NCBI GenBank assembly: GCA_018433265.1
Contig: JAHDRO010000197.1
Location: forward strand, 1-7,499
Direction of reading: 5' to 3'
DNA length: 7,499 bases
From: Bacteroidales bacterium
GTDB lineage: Bacteria; Bacteroidota; Bacteroidia; Bacteroidales; UBA932
Below the pieces are notes generated by a model that ran no database searches, was not told the origin of the DNA, and saw nothing but the letters and a program-made list of their open reading frames with translations. The position numbers and the translations under genes were made by a program. Of this stretch, positions 1 to 7,499 are shown piece after piece. Positions within the stretch are counted from its first letter, which is position 1; every line of letters starts with the position of its first letter.

Positions 1-963
1 AAGAATCTGGCGCACAGCATCTCTTCCCTGTCCTATTTTAGTGTCATTGTAACTGAACCAGGAACCGCTTTTACGTATGATTTCGAGGTCAACGCCGAGA
101 TCTATTATCTCTCCAACTTTTGAAATCCCTTCTCCGAAAACTATGTCGAACTCTGCTTTTCTGAAAGGAGGAGCCAGCTTATTCTTGACAATTTTGGCAC
201 GTGTGCGGTTGCCCGTTGTTTCCTCACCGTCCTTGAGCTGAGTAACCTTTCGGACATCTACCCTAACTGAAGCATAAAATTTAAGAGCATTACCACCCGT
301 GGTTGTTTCAGGGTTTCCAAACATAACTCCGATTTTTTCACGAAGCTGGTTTATGAAAATGCAGCATGTGTTCGTTTTGCTGATATTTGCAGTTAACTTT
401 CTAAGAGCCTGACTCATCAATCTGGCTTGTAAACCCATTTTGGAGTCTCCCATCTCGCCTTCAATTTCAGCTTTGGGGGTAAGAGCCGCAACTGAGTCTA
501 TAACAATAATGTCTATTGCTCCGGAGCGGATAAGTGCGTCTGCAATCTCAAGAGCTTGTTCTCCGTTGTCAGGCTGTGATATTAAAAGTGTATCCACATT
601 TACTCCGAGATTCTTGGCATATGTTCTGTCAAATGCGTGTTCTGCATCAATAATTGCAGCTATACCTCCACTTTTCTGTGCTTCGGCTATTGCATGAATT
701 GCAAGGGTAGTTTTACCACTTGACTCAGGGCCATAAATTTCGATGACTCTTCCTCTAGGGTATCCTCCAATACCAAGCGCATGATCCAGGGCAATCGATC
801 CTGATGGTATTGTGGAAACCTCCCATTTTGGCTGATCTCCCATCTTCATTACAGTGCCTTTCCCGTAATCCTTCTCAAGTTTGTCCAGAGTAGCCTGTAA
901 GGCTTTTTGCTTCTCAGAACTAATCTCAGCACCTTTCTTAACTTCTTCACTCTCCTTTGCCAT
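1..963 (-). CDS. recA: RecA recombinase (C-terminus cut off by window edge)
   Basis: RecA is a DNA-dependent ATPase that forms filaments on single-stranded DNA, performs homologous strand exchange and stimulates LexA-type self-cleavage in the cytoplasm. The frame is open for 321 codons from the ATG at 963-961 to the window edge; family members are about 340-350 residues, so only a short acidic tail is missing. Visible features are a helical N-terminal domain (about 17-45), Walker [10 protein letters not shown] (78-86), the catalytic region DAEHAFD (106-112), Walker B ending in DSVAAL (156-161), the L1 region EGEMGD (168-173), the INQLREKIG segment (204-212), the L2 segment [18 protein letters not shown], and [15 protein letters not shown]. 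No key residue is missing. The start fits the family and is preceded by AT-rich sequence without an SD. The gene is transcribed divergently from rlmN. Identification is by motifs and recalled Bacteroidota RecA sequences and is essentially certain. Confidence 0.98.
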
Positions 964-986
964 AATGTTGTATTTTTTTGTTCATG

Positions 987-994
987 CAAAAATA
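987..994 (-). promoter_or_regulatory. Putative recA -7 promoter box (TAnnTTTG)
   Basis: On the minus strand this reads TATTTTTG, a full match to the Bacteroidota -7 consensus TAnnTTTG. It lies 23 bases upstream of the recA ATG, which would give a short, SD-less leader of roughly 18 bases. A TTTG is present upstream (1010-1007), but it is only 12 bases away instead of the usual 19-21, so the -33 element is poor. AT-rich DNA produces such matches by chance. The location in a 65-base divergent gap is the main support. Confidence 0.45.
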
Positions 995-1016
995 ACAAAT
1001 GATTTCCAAAAATCTC

Positions 1017-1024
1017 TACATTTG
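1017..1024 (+). promoter_or_regulatory. Putative rlmN-operon -7 promoter box (TAnnTTTG)
   Basis: TACATTTG matches the Bacteroidota -7 consensus exactly and ends 4 bases before the chosen rlmN ATG at 1029. Transcription normally starts a few bases after this box, so the transcript would begin at or next to the start codon (a leaderless or near-leaderless mRNA). No good TTTG is seen at the expected -33 spacing. If the box is real, it also argues against the upstream in-frame ATG at 999, because the box would then lie inside the coding region. Confidence 0.4.
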
Positions 1025-1028
1025 TAAA

Positions 1029-2048
1029 ATGAAAACATGGCTACTTGGTAAGAGTCTGGATCAGCTCAGAGAAATCGTTGTAAATATGTCACTTCCGGCT
1101 TTTTCTGCTAAGCAGATTGCTGAGTGGATTTACAAGAAAAATTGTAAGGATATAATGCAGATGTCCAATATTTCGAAAGCAAACAGAGATAGACTTTCGG
1201 AACAGTATCAAGTTGGCGGATTCAGTCCTGAAAAGGTTACACTCTCTTCGGACGGAACAAAAAAATATCTTTTTCCCTCACTTTGTGAAACATTTATTGA
1301 ATCAGTCACAATACCTGAAGACGATAGAGTTACTTTATGTGTCTCGTCCCAGGCAGGCTGTAGGATGGGATGCAAGTTTTGCATGACTGCAAGAGTGGGA
1401 TACAAGGGTAATCTCACTGCTGGTGAGATTATTTCTCAATTACAAAATGTTGAGGAAAGCGATAAAATCACCAATATAGTATTTATGGGTATGGGAGAGC
1501 CGCTTGACAACTTTGGTGAAGTATCCGGTGCAATAAACATTTTAACTGCTGACTGGGGATTTGCATGGAGCCCTAAAAGAATCACTGTTTCTTCAATAGG
1601 TATTCACGAGCCACTTATCGACTTTTTGAATGATTACAAATGTCATATTGCGATATCCTTACATAACCCGTTTGAAGAGGAACGTCTCGAATTTGTACCT
1701 GCGCAAAAGGCCTGGCCTTTTGCAAGGACGCTTGAGATAATTCGTCGGTTTGACTTCACGGGGCAGAGAAGAGTAAGCTTTGAATATATCATGTTTGATG
1801 GATGGAACGATTCGAAACGTCATGCCGATGCGTTGATAAGGACTTTGAAAGGACTTGAGTGTAGGGTAAATCTAATACGCTTTCATCAAATCCCGGATTT
1901 TCCATACAAACCAACTCCAAATGCCAAAATTGAGTTGTTCAGGGAAAGATTGAACAAAGAAGGCTTGATCGCAACGATTCGTGCTTCGAGAGGTGAGGAT
2001 ATTCTTGCGGCTTGCGGGATGTTAAGTGGTAAAAACATTAACAAGTGA
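1029..2048 (+). CDS. rlmN: Dual-specificity 23S rRNA A2503 / tRNA A37 C2-methyltransferase RlmN
   Basis: RlmN is a radical-SAM enzyme that methylates carbon 2 of A2503 in 23S rRNA, and of A37 in some tRNAs in species where this was tested, through a methyl-cysteine intermediate. The 339-residue protein has an N-terminal accessory domain (about 1-95), the radical-SAM cluster motif CRMGCKFC (Cys111, Cys115, Cys118), GMGEPLDN (about 154-161) and the C-terminal RASRGEDILAACGML. Cys329 in that last motif corresponds to the methyl-carrying cysteine (E. coli Cys355), and Cys104 to the resolving cysteine (E. coli Cys118). All five functional cysteines are therefore present. An in-frame ATG at 999 would add ten residues. 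I prefer 1029 because its N-terminus (MKTWLLGKSL) aligns with Bacteroidota homologues and the putative promoter box lies just upstream. No SD is present. It is the first gene of the plus-strand run, and its TGA stop lies 8 bases before the preferred ATPase start. Confidence 0.96.
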   Translation: MKTWLLGKSLDQLREIVVNMSLPAFSAKQIAEWIYKKNCKDIMQMSNISKANRDRLSEQYQVGGFSPEKVTLSSDGTKKYLFPSLCETFIESVTIPEDDRVTLCVSSQAGCRMGCKFCMTARVGYKGNLTAGEIISQLQNVEESDKITNIVFMGMGEPLDNFGEVSGAINILTADWGFAWSPKRITVSSIGIHEPLIDFLNDYKCHIAISLHNPFEEERLEFVPAQKAWPFARTLEIIRRFDFTGQRRVSFEYIMFDGWNDSKRHADALIRTLKGLECRVNLIRFHQIPDFPYKPTPNAKIELFRERLNKEGLIATIRASRGEDILAACGMLSGKNINK

Positions 2049-2056
2049 ATCAATAT

Positions 2057-4891
2057 ATGGATACAAGTAAATTACATTCAGGTCTCAGTATAAGTGAAGT
2101 TGAGGAAAGCAGAAAAAAATTCGGCAGCAATGTGCTTACTCCTCCAAAGAGAGATCCTCTTTGGAAATTATTTCTTTTAAAATTTAATGATCCAATAATC
2201 AGGATTTTGCTTGTTGCTGCATTTCTTTCATTAGGTATATCATTTGTTCACAATGAATTTGTAGAAACAATAGGTATCTTCTGTGCTATATTTCTTGCAA
2301 CCGGCGTATCCTTCTGGTTTGAAATGGACGCCAGCAAGAAGTTCGATATTTTAAATCAGGTTAATGATGAAACTCTTGTTAAGGTTATAAGAGACGGTAA
2401 TATTAGAGAAGTACCCAAAAAAGACATTGTAGTTGGAGATATTATTCTGCTTGATACTGGTGAAGAGGTTCCTGCTGATGCAACCTTGATTGAGGCAGTT
2501 TCTCTTTCGGTCAACGAGTCTACATTGACAGGAGAGCCTGTTATAGAAAAGAGCGTAGATCCTGCCATGTTTGATGATGAAGCAACTTATCCCACGAACA
2601 ACATCTACAGGGGGACTACAATAGTAGATGGTCATTGCATTGCCAGGGTTTTTGCTGTTGGTGATTCTACCGAATATGGAAAGGTGGCACAGAAATCAGC
2701 TGAGAAAAACCCTGAAGAGACTCCGTTGAACAGGCAACTTGACAAATTGGCAAAATTTGTGGGTTTTGCTGGATTTGTTCTTGCAGTCATGACATTTGCC
2801 ATGTTGTTTGTAAAGGACATGTTTCTTGGTAATGTGAACTATTCTTTCAGTGAAATTTTTCTGCTTGTTTCAGTCATAACCGGAGTGGTTATTGCAATTA
2901 CAAAGATTTGGATACCTGCTATTTATGACGGTTTGTCTGTTCTGGGGGCAAAAGTTACAACTCCTGCATTGGTGAGAGAGAGTGATTGGAGCCGATGGGT
3001 CACATTTGGGATTTCTACTACTGTCATTTTAATGGCGTTAGGTTATCTGATATTCGGGGTTGATCCTTCAGATGCCAATCAGTGGATTTCAATAGATACT
3101 GCAAGCCGTATTTTAAATTACTTCATGGTTTCAGTAACTTTGATAGTAGTTGCGATGCCAGAAGGCTTGCCGATGTCTGTAACACTGAGTCTTGCAATGA
3201 GTATGAAGAGAATGCTGCAGACAAACAATCTTGTAAGGAAGATGCACGCAACTGAAACTATGGGTGCTACAACTGTTATATGTACCGACAAAACAGGAAC
3301 TTTGACTCAGAATCAGATGCGAGTTGCCTTTACTAACTTTGTAGTTGGCAATGATGAACCCATTATTATGGAGAGTATTGCTGTAAATTCAACTGCATTT
3401 CTTGAAATATCTGATGATGGTAAGATCAAGGCTCTTGGCAATCCTACTGAGGCAGCTCTTTTGCTTTGGCTTCATGACAGAGGGATAAATTATCTGGAGG
3501 TTAGAAACAGTGCAAAGATTATCGATCAACTTACCTTCTCCACTGAACGTAAATATATGGCTACTTTGGCTGAATCAGCATCTTTGGGTAGAAGGATTCT
3601 TTTTGTTAAGGGGGCTCCTGAAATAGTAGCTTCCAAATGTATTTCACTACCTGATGGTTTGAACGACTTGCTTCTAAAGTATCAGAATCAAGCAATGAGG
3701 ACTTTGGCATTTGCTTACAAAGAAATTCCTGCAGAAGCGTGTAATGAGAAAATGGAAGTTCTATCTGAAAGAGGCCTGACTTATTTGGGAATGGTGGCAA
3801 TTGCCGATCCTGTGCGGCCTGATGTTCCGGATGCTGTTGCAAAATGTCTTAAAGCAGGTATTGATGTTAAAATTGTTACGGGCGATACTCCGCGAACTGC
3901 ATGGGAAATTGGACGCCAAATCGGTATAATTAATGACAATGATGGACCTGAGGTCATAATTACCGGAGTGGATTTTGAGGCTTTGACTGATGAGGAAGCT
4001 CTTGACCGTGTAATGGGACTTAAGATCATGTGCAGGGCGCGTCCAATAGACAAGCAAAGATTAGTGCAGCTTTTGCAGAAGAAAGGAGCTGTAGTAGCTG
4101 TTACTGGGGATGGAACTAATGACGCTCCGGCTCTCAATTATGCTCATGTTGGTCTTTCAATGGGCTCTGGTACTTCCGTCGCAAAAGAGGCAAGCGACAT
4201 AACACTCCTCGACGACTCTTTCAACAGTATAGCAACTGCTGTCATGTGGGGGCGTTCATTGTATCAGAATATTCAGAGATTTATACTGTTTCAGTTAACC
4301 ATTAATTTTGCAGCTCTTCTTATTGTCTTTATAGGATCTTTAATTGGCAAGGACCTCCCATTGACTGTTACTCAGATGCTTTGGGTTAATCTGATTATGG
4401 ATACCTTTGCAGCCGGAGCACTTGCCTCCTTGCCGCCTGATGAACGGGTAATGGAGCGTAAGCCAAGAAAAGCTGATGATTTTATAATTACAAAAAAAAT
4501 GGCTGTAATTATTATTACTTCGGGAGTAATTTTTGTCGTTTTTATGCTTGGACTATTGGAGTACTTTACTAATGATGCAGGTGAAATTTCCCGATATGAT
4601 TCGTCGCGGTTCTTTACTTTTTTTGTAATGTTGCAATTTTGGAACATGTTCAATGCCAAAAGATTTGGTTCTTCAGAATCTGCATTCAGAGATATTACAA
4701 AAAGTAAGGGATTTCTTTTAGTCGGGCTGTTGATAGTTGCAGGTCAGGTATTGATTGTTCAGTTCGGAGGAGATGTTTTTAGAACTGAGCCTATCAGCTT
4801 GAGAGATTGGGTGCTTATAATTCTTATTACTTCACTTGTACTTATAGTTGGAGAAGCTGCTGCGATTATTAAAAGAATAATTAAAAAATAA
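2057..4891 (+). CDS. PMCA-type (type IIB) calcium-transporting P-type ATPase
   Basis: This is an integral membrane ATPase that most likely exports Ca2+ from the cytoplasm. Numbering is from the ATG at 2057 (944 residues). A GTG at 2045 overlapping the rlmN stop as GTGA would add four residues and is a possible alternative; neither start has an SD. In order: cation-ATPase N-terminal domain (1-40), M1 (44-63) and M2 (68-88), actuator LTGEP (TGE 158-160), M3 (about 232-253), M4 with PEGLP (368-372), phosphorylation motif DKTGT (Asp411), nucleotide-domain KGAPE (518-522), VTGD (607-610), hinge TGDGTNDAPAL (from 683), then M5-M10 to the C-terminus. M6 carries NLIMD (Asn778, Asp782). M5 has Asn750, with Ala753 where SERCA pumps have a Ca2+-site glutamate, which favours the one-site PMCA class. 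An extra hydrophobic pair lies at about 263-334. Ca2+ specificity is inferred from the family; Mn2+ or another cation is possible. Confidence 0.93.
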   Translation: MDTSKLHSGLSISEVEESRKKFGSNVLTPPKRDPLWKLFLLKFNDPIIRILLVAAFLSLGISFVHNEFVETIGIFCAIFLATGVSFWFEMDASKKFDILNQVNDETLVKVIRDGNIREVPKKDIVVGDIILLDTGEEVPADATLIEAVSLSVNESTLTGEPVIEKSVDPAMFDDEATYPTNNIYRGTTIVDGHCIARVFAVGDSTEYGKVAQKSAEKNPEETPLNRQLDKLAKFVGFAGFVLAVMTFAMLFVKDMFLGNVNYSFSEIFLLVSVITGVVIAITKIWIPAIYDGLSVLGAKVTTPALVRESDWSRWVTFGISTTVILMALGYLIFGVDPSDANQWISIDTASRILNYFMVSVTLIVVAMPEGLPMSVTLSLAMSMKRMLQTNNLVRKMHATETMGATTVICTDKTGTLTQNQMRVAFTNFVVGNDEPIIMESIAVNSTAFLEISDDGKIKALGNPTEAALLLWLHDRGINYLEVRNSAKIIDQLTFSTERKYMATLAESASLGRRILFVKGAPEIVASKCISLPDGLNDLLLKYQNQAMRTLAFAYKEIPAEACNEKMEVLSERGLTYLGMVAIADPVRPDVPDAVAKCLKAGIDVKIVTGDTPRTAWEIGRQIGIINDNDGPEVIITGVDFEALTDEEALDRVMGLKIMCRARPIDKQRLVQLLQKKGAVVAVTGDGTNDAPALNYAHVGLSMGSGTSVAKEASDITLLDDSFNSIATAVMWGRSLYQNIQRFILFQLTINFAALLIVFIGSLIGKDLPLTVTQMLWVNLIMDTFAAGALASLPPDERVMERKPRKADDFIITKKMAVIIITSGVIFVVFMLGLLEYFTNDAGEISRYDSSRFFTFFVMLQFWNMFNAKRFGSSESAFRDITKSKGFLLVGLLIVAGQVLIVQFGGDVFRTEPISLRDWVLIILITSLVLIVGEAAAIIKRIIKK

Positions 4892-4895
4892 TTTG

Positions 4896-5426
4896 ATGTC
4901 ATTGCAGGAAGGAGGTATACAAAAAGGTGAGTCTGCTGCAAAGAAGAGATACGACAATCATTCTTTGCTTGCCCAGATGCAACGTTTATGTGCGATAAGG
5001 GAGTATACTATTCAGGATATTAATTCCAAGCTTAGGAACAAAGGCTGTAGTGAACATGAAATATTGGAAATTGTTGGTAAACTTATAGAGGACAATTATA
5101 TAAACGAGGAACGTTATGCATTTGCCTTTGTAAGAGATAAATCTACTCTTGCAGGATGGGGGCGAAAAAAAATTGAGTATGCATTGAAGAACAAAGGTAT
5201 TGGTCAAACTGTTATTAAGATTGCTTTGGACTCTATATCGTCTGAATCTGACATTGCCTTACTTGAAAAACTTCTCCTTAAGAAAATAAATGAATTGAAG
5301 CCAAAGCTGGAGTCAAAGGATGATGGAACAAAGAAGCTAAGGGAGAAACTTTTGAGATTTGCTCTTTCAAGGGGCTTTTCTTATGAAGAGATTATAAAAG
5401 TTATTAATAAAACATTATTGAAATAA
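4896..5426 (+). CDS. recX: RecX-family regulator of RecA
   Basis: RecX proteins are small helical cytoplasmic proteins that bind RecA filaments and usually inhibit or remodel them. The 176-residue product shows the family's tandem three-helix repeats at about 24-67, 71-113 and 118-175. Recognisable signatures are NEERYAFAFVRDK in repeat 2, GWGRKKIEYALKNKGI between repeats 2 and 3, and the C-terminal LLRFALSRGFSYEEII. The length is within the family range. The ATG at 4896 lies 4 bases after the ATPase stop, and a TTG at 4893 is an alternative. The first 20 or so residues are not conserved, so the true start is less certain than the family call. A strong AGGAGG lies just inside the gene (4910-4915) but leads to no in-frame ATG, GTG or TTG at proper spacing. 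The TAA stop directly abuts the prfB ATG, suggesting coupled translation. The likely target, RecA, is encoded in the same window. Confidence 0.9.
   Translation: MSLQEGGIQKGESAAKKRYDNHSLLAQMQRLCAIREYTIQDINSKLRNKGCSEHEILEIVGKLIEDNYINEERYAFAFVRDKSTLAGWGRKKIEYALKNKGIGQTVIKIALDSISSESDIALLEKLLLKKINELKPKLESKDDGTKKLREKLLRFALSRGFSYEEIIKVINKTLLK
4910..4915 (+). other. AGGAGG inside the recX 5' coding region
   Basis: A perfect anti-SD complement sits 12 bases after the recX ATG, in a genome segment where no gene start has an SD. The next ATG/GTG/TTG-type codon at plausible distance is the GTG at 4927, which is out of the recX frame. The hexamer could slow initiation or be coincidental, because Glu-Gly-Gly codons produce it easily. 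No function can be assigned. Confidence 0.3.
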
Positions 5427-6513
5427 ATGGTTAATCTGGAACAATTCAAGGAACTCCAGCAACGTACTTCTGCGTTGAGGAGGTCTCTTTGACATAGATG
5501 GGAAGAGAGAAAAAATAAAAGAACTTGAAGACAGGAGCTCATCTCCTGATTTTTGGGATGATCCCAAAAGTGCTGAATCATTTTTAAAAAATGTCTCATC
5601 AATTAAGTATTGGACTGATAAATTTGCATCTATAGAAACATCATTGGAGGATTTTGAGATACTATTGGACCTTGTCAGGGAGGATCCTGAACTTGAGGAA
5701 GAAGTGGATAAGGCATTCTCTCAAACTTTGAGACTAATCGAAGAGTTGGAAATGAGGAAGATGTTAGGTGAAGAGGGTGATAATCTTGGAGCAATTCTCA
5801 AGATAAACTCAGGTGCAGGAGGTACTGAAAGTAATGATTGGTCTTCAATGTTGATGCGAATGTATGCAAGATGGGGTGAGAGAAATAATTACAAGGTTCA
5901 TATCTATGATCTTATAGAAGGAGATGAGGCAGGAATTAAATCTGTGACACTTGAATTTGAAGGTGAATATGCGTATGGTTACTTGAAGGCAGAGACAGGA
6001 GTTCACAGGCTTGTCAGAATTTCGCCATTTAATGCTCAGGGAAAGAGACAAACCACATTTTCTTCAGTTTTTGTTTATCCAGCTGTAGATGACACTATAG
6101 AGATTGAAATAAATCCTGGAGATTTAGAATGGGATACCTTTCGCTCCAGTGGGGCCGGAGGTCAAAATGTAAATAAAGTGGAGACAGGTGTTCGGGTTAG
6201 ACATATTCCTACAGGTATTTCTGTAGAAAATACTGAAACCCGCTCTCAACTGGATAACAGGCAAAATGCATTGAGGATTCTTAAATCTCATCTCTATGAA
6301 CTTGAATTGAGAAAGAGGCGGGAGAAGCAGGCTGAACTTGAAGGATCAAAGATGAAAATTGAATGGGGTTCACAGATAAGAAGCTATGTTCTTCATCCTT
6401 ACAAAATGGTGAAAGATTTAAGGACAGGGTATGAAACTTCTGATGTGCAGGCAGTGTTGGATGGAGACTTGAATGATTTTATGAAAGCATTTTTGTTAGG
6501 AACATTCAAATGA
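5427..6513 (+). CDS. prfB: Peptide chain release factor RF2, expressed by programmed +1 frameshift
   Basis: RF2 recognises UAA and UGA in the ribosomal A site and triggers peptide release. Translation starts at the ATG at 5427, directly after the recX TAA. It runs 21 codons to CTT (5487-5489), meets an in-frame TGA (5490-5492), and continues in the +1 frame from GAC at 5491 to the TGA at 6511-6513. The joined protein is 361 residues, close to E. coli RF2 (365). Seen are the N-terminal helical domain, SGAGGTESNDW (128-138), the stop-codon recognition tripeptide SPF (199-201) that distinguishes RF2 from RF1, and the peptidyl-hydrolysis motif GGQ (244-246) in SSGAGGQNVNK. The residue before GGQ is Ala243. 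The post-shift frame alone lacks the true N-terminus, so a call that ignores the shift is truncated. Expression should be autoregulated: scarce RF2 lets ribosomes pause at the internal UGA and shift. The gene also ends in UGA, its own substrate. Confidence 0.97.
5478..5493 (+). promoter_or_regulatory. prfB programmed +1 ribosomal frameshift cassette
   Basis: The 16 bases read AGG AGG TCT CTT TGA C in the zero frame. They contain an internal SD-like AGGAGG (5478-5483), a 3-base spacer, the slippery CTT codon (5487-5489), and the poor UGA-C terminator (5490-5493). Spacing and order are identical to the E. coli cassette AGG GGG TAT CTT TGA C. Leucyl-tRNA slips from CUU to UUU, and GAC is read next. 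Strong RF2 homology immediately after the shift confirms that it is used. Confidence 0.95.
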
Positions 6514-6547
6514 CAGATAATATGAATTGTTATATAATTATAGAAAT

Positions 6548-7489
6548 ATGAATTTTAAGTTTCAGGAAATCTTTCCATTGGGGAACGATAAAACACACTA
6601 TCACCTTCTTACAAAAAAATATATCTCTGTTGCAAGTTTTGAGGGTCATGAAATACTTAAGATAGATCTTGAAGGAATAAGACTGCTTGTCAGACAGGCT
6701 TTCCATGATGTATCTTTTATGCTAAGGCCTGAACATAATGAACAGGTCGCCAGGATTTTGAATGATCCTGAAGCCAGTGCGAACGACAAGTATGTAGCTC
6801 TTACCATGTTACTAAATGCAGATGTCTCTTCAAAAGGTGTTCTTCCTTTTTGTCAGGATACAGGTACTGCAATTGTAATTGCAAAGAAGGGACAAAAGAT
6901 CTGGACAGGAGGTGGAGACGAAGAGGCAATATCGCATGGAGTTTTTGATACTTATACTCAGGATAATTTGAGATATTCACAAAATGCTCCTCTCGACATG
7001 TATAACGAAAAAAATACAGGATGTAATCTTCCTGCCCAGATAGATATTTATGCAACCGATAATGATGAATATGATTTTCTTTGCATAGCTAAAGGGGGTG
7101 GTTCTGCCAATAAGACTTTTTTATTTCAGGAAACCAGAGCTTTGCTCAATCCTGATACTCTCGAGAAATTTTTAGTGGAGAAAATGAAAACTCTTGGTAC
7201 CTCAGCCTGCCCTCCATATCATATTGCTTTTGTGATTGGTGGGACTTCTGCAGAGAGTTGTCTTAAAACTGTGAAACTTGCTTCTGCCAAATATCTTGAT
7301 GCACTTCCTACAAAAGGCAACGAGTTGGGACATGCTTTTAGAGATGTTGAGCTTGAATCAAAATTACTACAGGCTGCACAAAAACTTGGTATAGGAGCAC
7401 AATTCGGAGGCAAATATTTTGCACACGATATAAGGGTGATACGTCTTCCACGTCACGGTGCCTCATGTCCTGTCGGATTGGGAGTTTGA
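6548..7489 (+). CDS. Class I ([4Fe-4S]) fumarate hydratase, N-terminal domain, stopped by in-frame TGA
   Basis: Class I fumarases interconvert fumarate and malate in the cytoplasmic TCA cycle using an oxygen-sensitive [4Fe-4S] cluster. The frame from the ATG at 6548 gives 313 residues of the N-terminal (alpha) domain. Visible motifs are LPFCQDTGT (cluster ligand Cys102), [10 protein letters not shown] (182-190), GTSACPPYH (ligand Cys221), IGGTSAE (230-236), [12 protein letters not shown] (283-294) and [12 protein letters not shown] (299-310). E. coli FumA ligands are Cys105, Cys224 and Cys318, spaced 119 and 94. Here Cys102 to Cys221 is 119, and the third ligand falls at codon 315, just after the TGA at codon 314. 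A TTG seven codons upstream (6527) is an inferior start. The C-terminal (beta) domain of single-chain fumarases (about 545 residues) would lie beyond the window. As terminated, the protein lacks a cluster ligand and would not be expected to work. It could be a pseudogene, a sequence error or a recoded gene. Other substrates, such as tartrate, are less likely given the close FumA-like motifs. Confidence 0.9.
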
Positions 7490-7499
7490 TGCAGTGCTG
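7487..7499 (+). other. In-frame TGA before the third Fe-S cysteine codon; homology resumes downstream
   Basis: Bases 7484-7499 read GTT TGA TGC AGT GCT G, that is V-stop-C-S-A. Class I fumarases normally read GVSCSAD here, so the TGA replaces the serine codon (TCA to TGA is one base change) and the following Cys-Ser-Ala is intact. No frame change is needed. The window ends 10 bases after the TGA, so the rest of the gene cannot be examined. Confidence 0.8.

Follow-up and report, generated by a model that had tools for sequence, protein, structure and literature searches.

A class I fumarate hydratase (fumarase) gene at the end of the 7,499-nucleotide stretch of DNA analyzed here (the window) is interrupted by an in-frame TGA, and the most probable source of this stop is an error of sequencing or assembly at the contig end. 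What the window shows of the gene is the beginning of an unremarkable class I (4Fe-4S) fumarase of the single-chain type, from a Bacteroidales bacterium. An error is the likely cause because intact protein twins exist and because the stop falls within the window's final 13 bases: the organism's own gene would carry no stop, and the TGA would be a miscall close to where the assembled sequence ends. Neither an error nor a private mutation is new biology, and as it stands the TGA matters little, serving as a reminder to suspect stop codons in the last bases of sequences.

The window holds, in order, recA, rlmN, a gene for a calcium-type P-type ATPase, recX, prfB and the class I fumarase gene, as established from a listing of open reading frames and profile searches (Table 1). 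Rfam searches of the window returned no matches at gathering scores.

Table 1. Positions of the features of the window that bear on the interrupted fumarase gene.
Feature	Position	Strand	Basis or remark
recA	truncated at base 1	minus	named from its translation
prfB (release factor 2), directly upstream of fumarase	5427..6513	plus	+1 frameshift site at 5487-5493
Class I fumarate hydratase, N-terminal (alpha) part	6548..7489	plus	ATG, 313 codons, TGA; open reading frame listing, PF05681, NF011920/NF011919
In-frame TGA	7487..7489	plus	serine in 92/92 distinct related sequences and in 120/120 proteins among the matches listed
Post-stop stretch, same frame (Cys-Ser-Ala and one base)	7490..7499	plus	cysteine aligned with Cys346 of Leishmania major fumarase 2

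Translated from its ATG (the listing of open frames begins this frame at an upstream TTG, 6527), the fumarase gene bears out three observations of an earlier, sequence-only reading of this DNA: the TGA immediately precedes the codon of the third cluster cysteine; the ten bases that follow it, up to the end of the window, continue in the same frame as Cys-Ser-Ala; and the distance from Cys221 to the post-stop cysteine (Cys315), by residue count, is 94. The open part contains cysteines at residues 102, 159, 179, 221, 238 and 307. Two of the class I cluster cysteines, 102 and 221, are thus in the open frame, and the third, 315, is encoded behind the TGA. The window, 7,499 bases long, does not include the beta half, and the remainder of the gene would be found past its end. 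A frameshift in place of a substitution was considered and rejected, as neither of the other two frames yields Cys-Ser-Ala over the last 39 bases. No copy of the last 12-20 bases was found elsewhere in the window, on either strand.

The class assignment rests on several profiles. The alpha-domain profile PF05681 matches the open frame with 257.7 bits (gathering score, 25), placing it among alpha-domain homologues, and TIGR00722 matches with 107.1 bits against a cut-off of 100.65. The single-chain class I models of the FumA/FumB type, NF011920 and NF011919, match the 313 residues with 556.4 and 550.4 bits, respectively, from model position 5 or 6 to 316 of 548; the window's fumarase stays below the full-length cut-offs of both (1094 and 1105), as its copy, unlike the full-length enzymes, ends before the third cluster cysteine. 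The identical protein is known as an intact chain of 538 residues (P0001, P0002), and P0001 has the beta domain PF05683.

The sequence-only reading took the post-stop cysteine to be the third [4Fe-4S] ligand, an assignment that alignment to a known structure supports. The homologue P0013 has cysteines at the window's numbers 102, 221 and 315, and its residues 22-330 align without gaps to chain positions 89-397 of L. major fumarase 2 (PDB 5l2r). The three cysteines fall on chain positions 169, 288 and 382, which become 133, 252 and 346 when 36 is subtracted; the fit of all three suggests that this constant shift in the 5l2r numbering reflects a tag. Cys133, Cys252 and Cys346 are named among the active-site residues in PMC10602362. 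Residue 315 accordingly aligns with Cys346; in the window, by contrast with the L. major protein, it sits behind the TGA, and the active-site residues after Cys346 would be absent from the stopped protein too. Among 92 distinct related coding sequences, residues 102, 221, 307 and 315 are invariably cysteine, and residues 314 and 316 invariably serine. According to PMC3565967, strict conservation among FumA/FumB homologues is limited to the cysteines C105, C224, C310 and C474; that list omits the cysteine of residue 315, an omission with which both these counts and the L. major structure disagree.

Homologous proteins run through the site of the stop. P0001 (11 contigs) and P0002 (1 contig) show no differences from the window over its 313 residues, and both continue intact to residue 538; P0003, P0004 and P0005 (3, 3 and 1 contigs) each differ from it at a single residue. 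The five proteins together occur on 19 contigs, a tally that may count one assembly several times, from several sources. The motif (M/L)GVSCSAD, with serine-cysteine at the site, is present in all 120 proteins among the matches listed (7,999 scored). None of these 120 has 313 or 320 residues, the length expected from this stop, in a database clustered at 90% identity, where a truncated twin could be hidden.

At the DNA level, each of the 100 homologous loci examined has a serine codon at the position of the TGA. The sequence-only reading had proposed a comparison of this codon in relatives, which returned serine in all 92 distinct coding sequences, with all six serine codons represented, and an internal stop in none over the aligned stretch; the figure refers to distinct sequences, not genomes (112 aligned places minus repeats), taken from the best-scoring loci, mostly of Bacteroidales with some enterobacteria. 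The fumarase stop is shared by no other sequence examined.

DNA of the same species was not found in a scan of genome contigs, in which the best 80 of 573 confirmed places reach at most 78% protein identity and the species may have been missed; a 29-base exact pattern had no matches in viral contigs. Eight genomes reached through the loci show 70-72% DNA identity. In the family of genome G004, 208 of 299 genomes match, with at most 75% identity over a near-full-length match among the matches listed. A longer query matches 377 of 398 genomes sampled out of a larger number in the family of G018, at 76% or less among the matches listed, and in the genus of G018 fumarase DNA matches 23 of 25 genomes, at one place each and with at most 75% identity. 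This genus, which has the nearest fumarase DNA among the genomes searched (75%), serves below as a proxy, a related genus that need not be the window's own.

Several features point to a wrong base call, which we infer for the TGA. Position 7499 appears to be the end of the contig, judging from the odd length of the window and from genes cut at both of its ends. Toward its very end, an assembled sequence usually has its poorest read support. Speaking against an error, the rest of the window sequence is clean, and general poor quality is not seen. The earlier observation that the DNA shows no other decay stands: in 2,463 codons counted, fumarase included, the window genes contain no other inner stop except at the frameshift site of prfB. 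No measurement of a raised base-error rate at contig ends was found in the literature searched; the portion of PMC6162917 consulted deals with chimeric reads that cross contig edges rather than with base errors, and lends no support to a reading of base error at contig ends.

The main rival to a miscall, and a fair one though less likely, is a genuine nonsense mutation of recent origin, carried by this strain or by some of its population. Its product would be a 313-residue fragment lacking the third cluster cysteine and the beta domain, and hence class I fumarase activity. The TGA is, after all, present in the given letters, in a frame free of other damage, as a fresh mutation would leave it; the event would have to be young, since proteins identical over the 313 residues are intact, and a contig break at a strain-variable site is also plausible. 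The location in the final 13 bases, however, is what an artefact predicts, and the loss should be selected against, since the related genus appears to have class I as its usual fumarase. There, the class II profile matches 24 of 25 genomes and passes its cut-off in one (controls, 7 of 14); in 21 of the 25 the match is near-full-length at 450-474 bits, below the cut-off of 664.75, and is probably to aspartate ammonia-lyase. With class I matches in 23 of the 25 genomes and a class II pass in one, loss should therefore be costly: a strain losing its class I fumarase would probably lack the enzyme.

It is very improbable that a full-length fumarase arises by readthrough or recoding of the UGA, whether as selenocysteine, as serine or as some other residue. 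In favor of such decoding, the conserved Cys-Ser-Ala continues in the same frame, and the gene resembles those of UGA-recoded selenoproteins in that its in-frame UGA interrupts a conserved motif next to a cysteine codon. It differs from them in that its relatives carry serine, including the proteins identical to the window's own, and in that no selenocysteine machinery scores above cut-off in the related genus. Neither UGA nor cysteine replaces the serine in homologues, be it in the 92 coding sequences or in the 120 listed proteins. In the proxy genus, tRNA-Sec passes its cut-off in none of 25 genomes, with weak matches in all 25 (controls, 5 of 14 pass), and at the eight loci inspected among the best matches a tRNA-Leu or tRNA-Ser lies at the match. 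SelB likewise passes in 0 of 25, again with weak matches in all (controls, 2 of 14 pass); the best 19 matches, all inside positions 1-275 of 581, come from frames 399-427 residues long and are probably elongation factor Tu. The pair of tRNA-Sec and SelB that a selenoprotein calls for was thus not found above cut-off in this related genus. A SECIS element would be sought behind the UGA, where the window offers 10 bases. A literature search linking fumarase to selenocysteine and UGA led to PMC2830990, in whose text, as far as consulted, fumarase occurs in the reference list only; a search on bacterial fumarate hydratase with a nonsense mutation and readthrough returned no papers.

The neighboring genes also speak against recoding, as both rlmN and prfB end in TGA and prfB encodes release factor 2 by profile match. 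Release factor 2 is the factor for UGA. The pattern of a UGA-reassigned code, with in-frame UGAs across genes and no UGA stops, is not seen among the genes of the window. The one other inner stop belongs to the classical programmed +1 frameshift of prfB, where 21 codons ending in CTT are followed by TGA (CTTTGAC), behind AGGAGG, and the main frame resumes at 5491; L119 and L120, loci from the two nearest genomes, have this site as well. That the TGA is both real and translated, placing a non-serine residue, possibly selenocysteine, next to the third [4Fe-4S] cysteine of a class I fumarase, is hardly to be credited; a recoded residue beside a cluster ligand of a central metabolic enzyme would, if true, be surprising. 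The order in which the sequence-only reading had ranked the explanations, error before recent nonsense mutation before recoding, is therefore upheld by the intact identical proteins, the 0 of 92 internal stops, the use of TGA as a stop and the lack of selenocysteine machinery above cut-off in the related genus.

A natural split of the gene at this point, with the alpha and beta parts made as two proteins in the manner of two-subunit class I fumarases, is extremely unlikely. A two-subunit relative exists (7xky, whose chains A, 298 aa, and B, 195 aa, match P0001 residues 61-323 and 371-535), but its alpha chain aligns beyond residue 315, so that the break would fall inside the alpha part rather than between domains. 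Over the aligned stretch, a stop interrupts none of the 92 distinct related sequences, and each of the near-identical proteins is one chain of 538 residues.

Beyond the fumarase gene, the window and the nearest genome (L119) align over 5-4800 and 5334-7497, in one order; the stretch between, 4801-5333, which holds most of recX, has no DNA-level alignment to L119. L120 aligns with window positions 1703-4824 and 5334-7497, the L120 stretch compared stopping at its own contig end. The prfB-fumarase neighborhood is conserved in G018 and G225, in which a single DNA match covers both genes.
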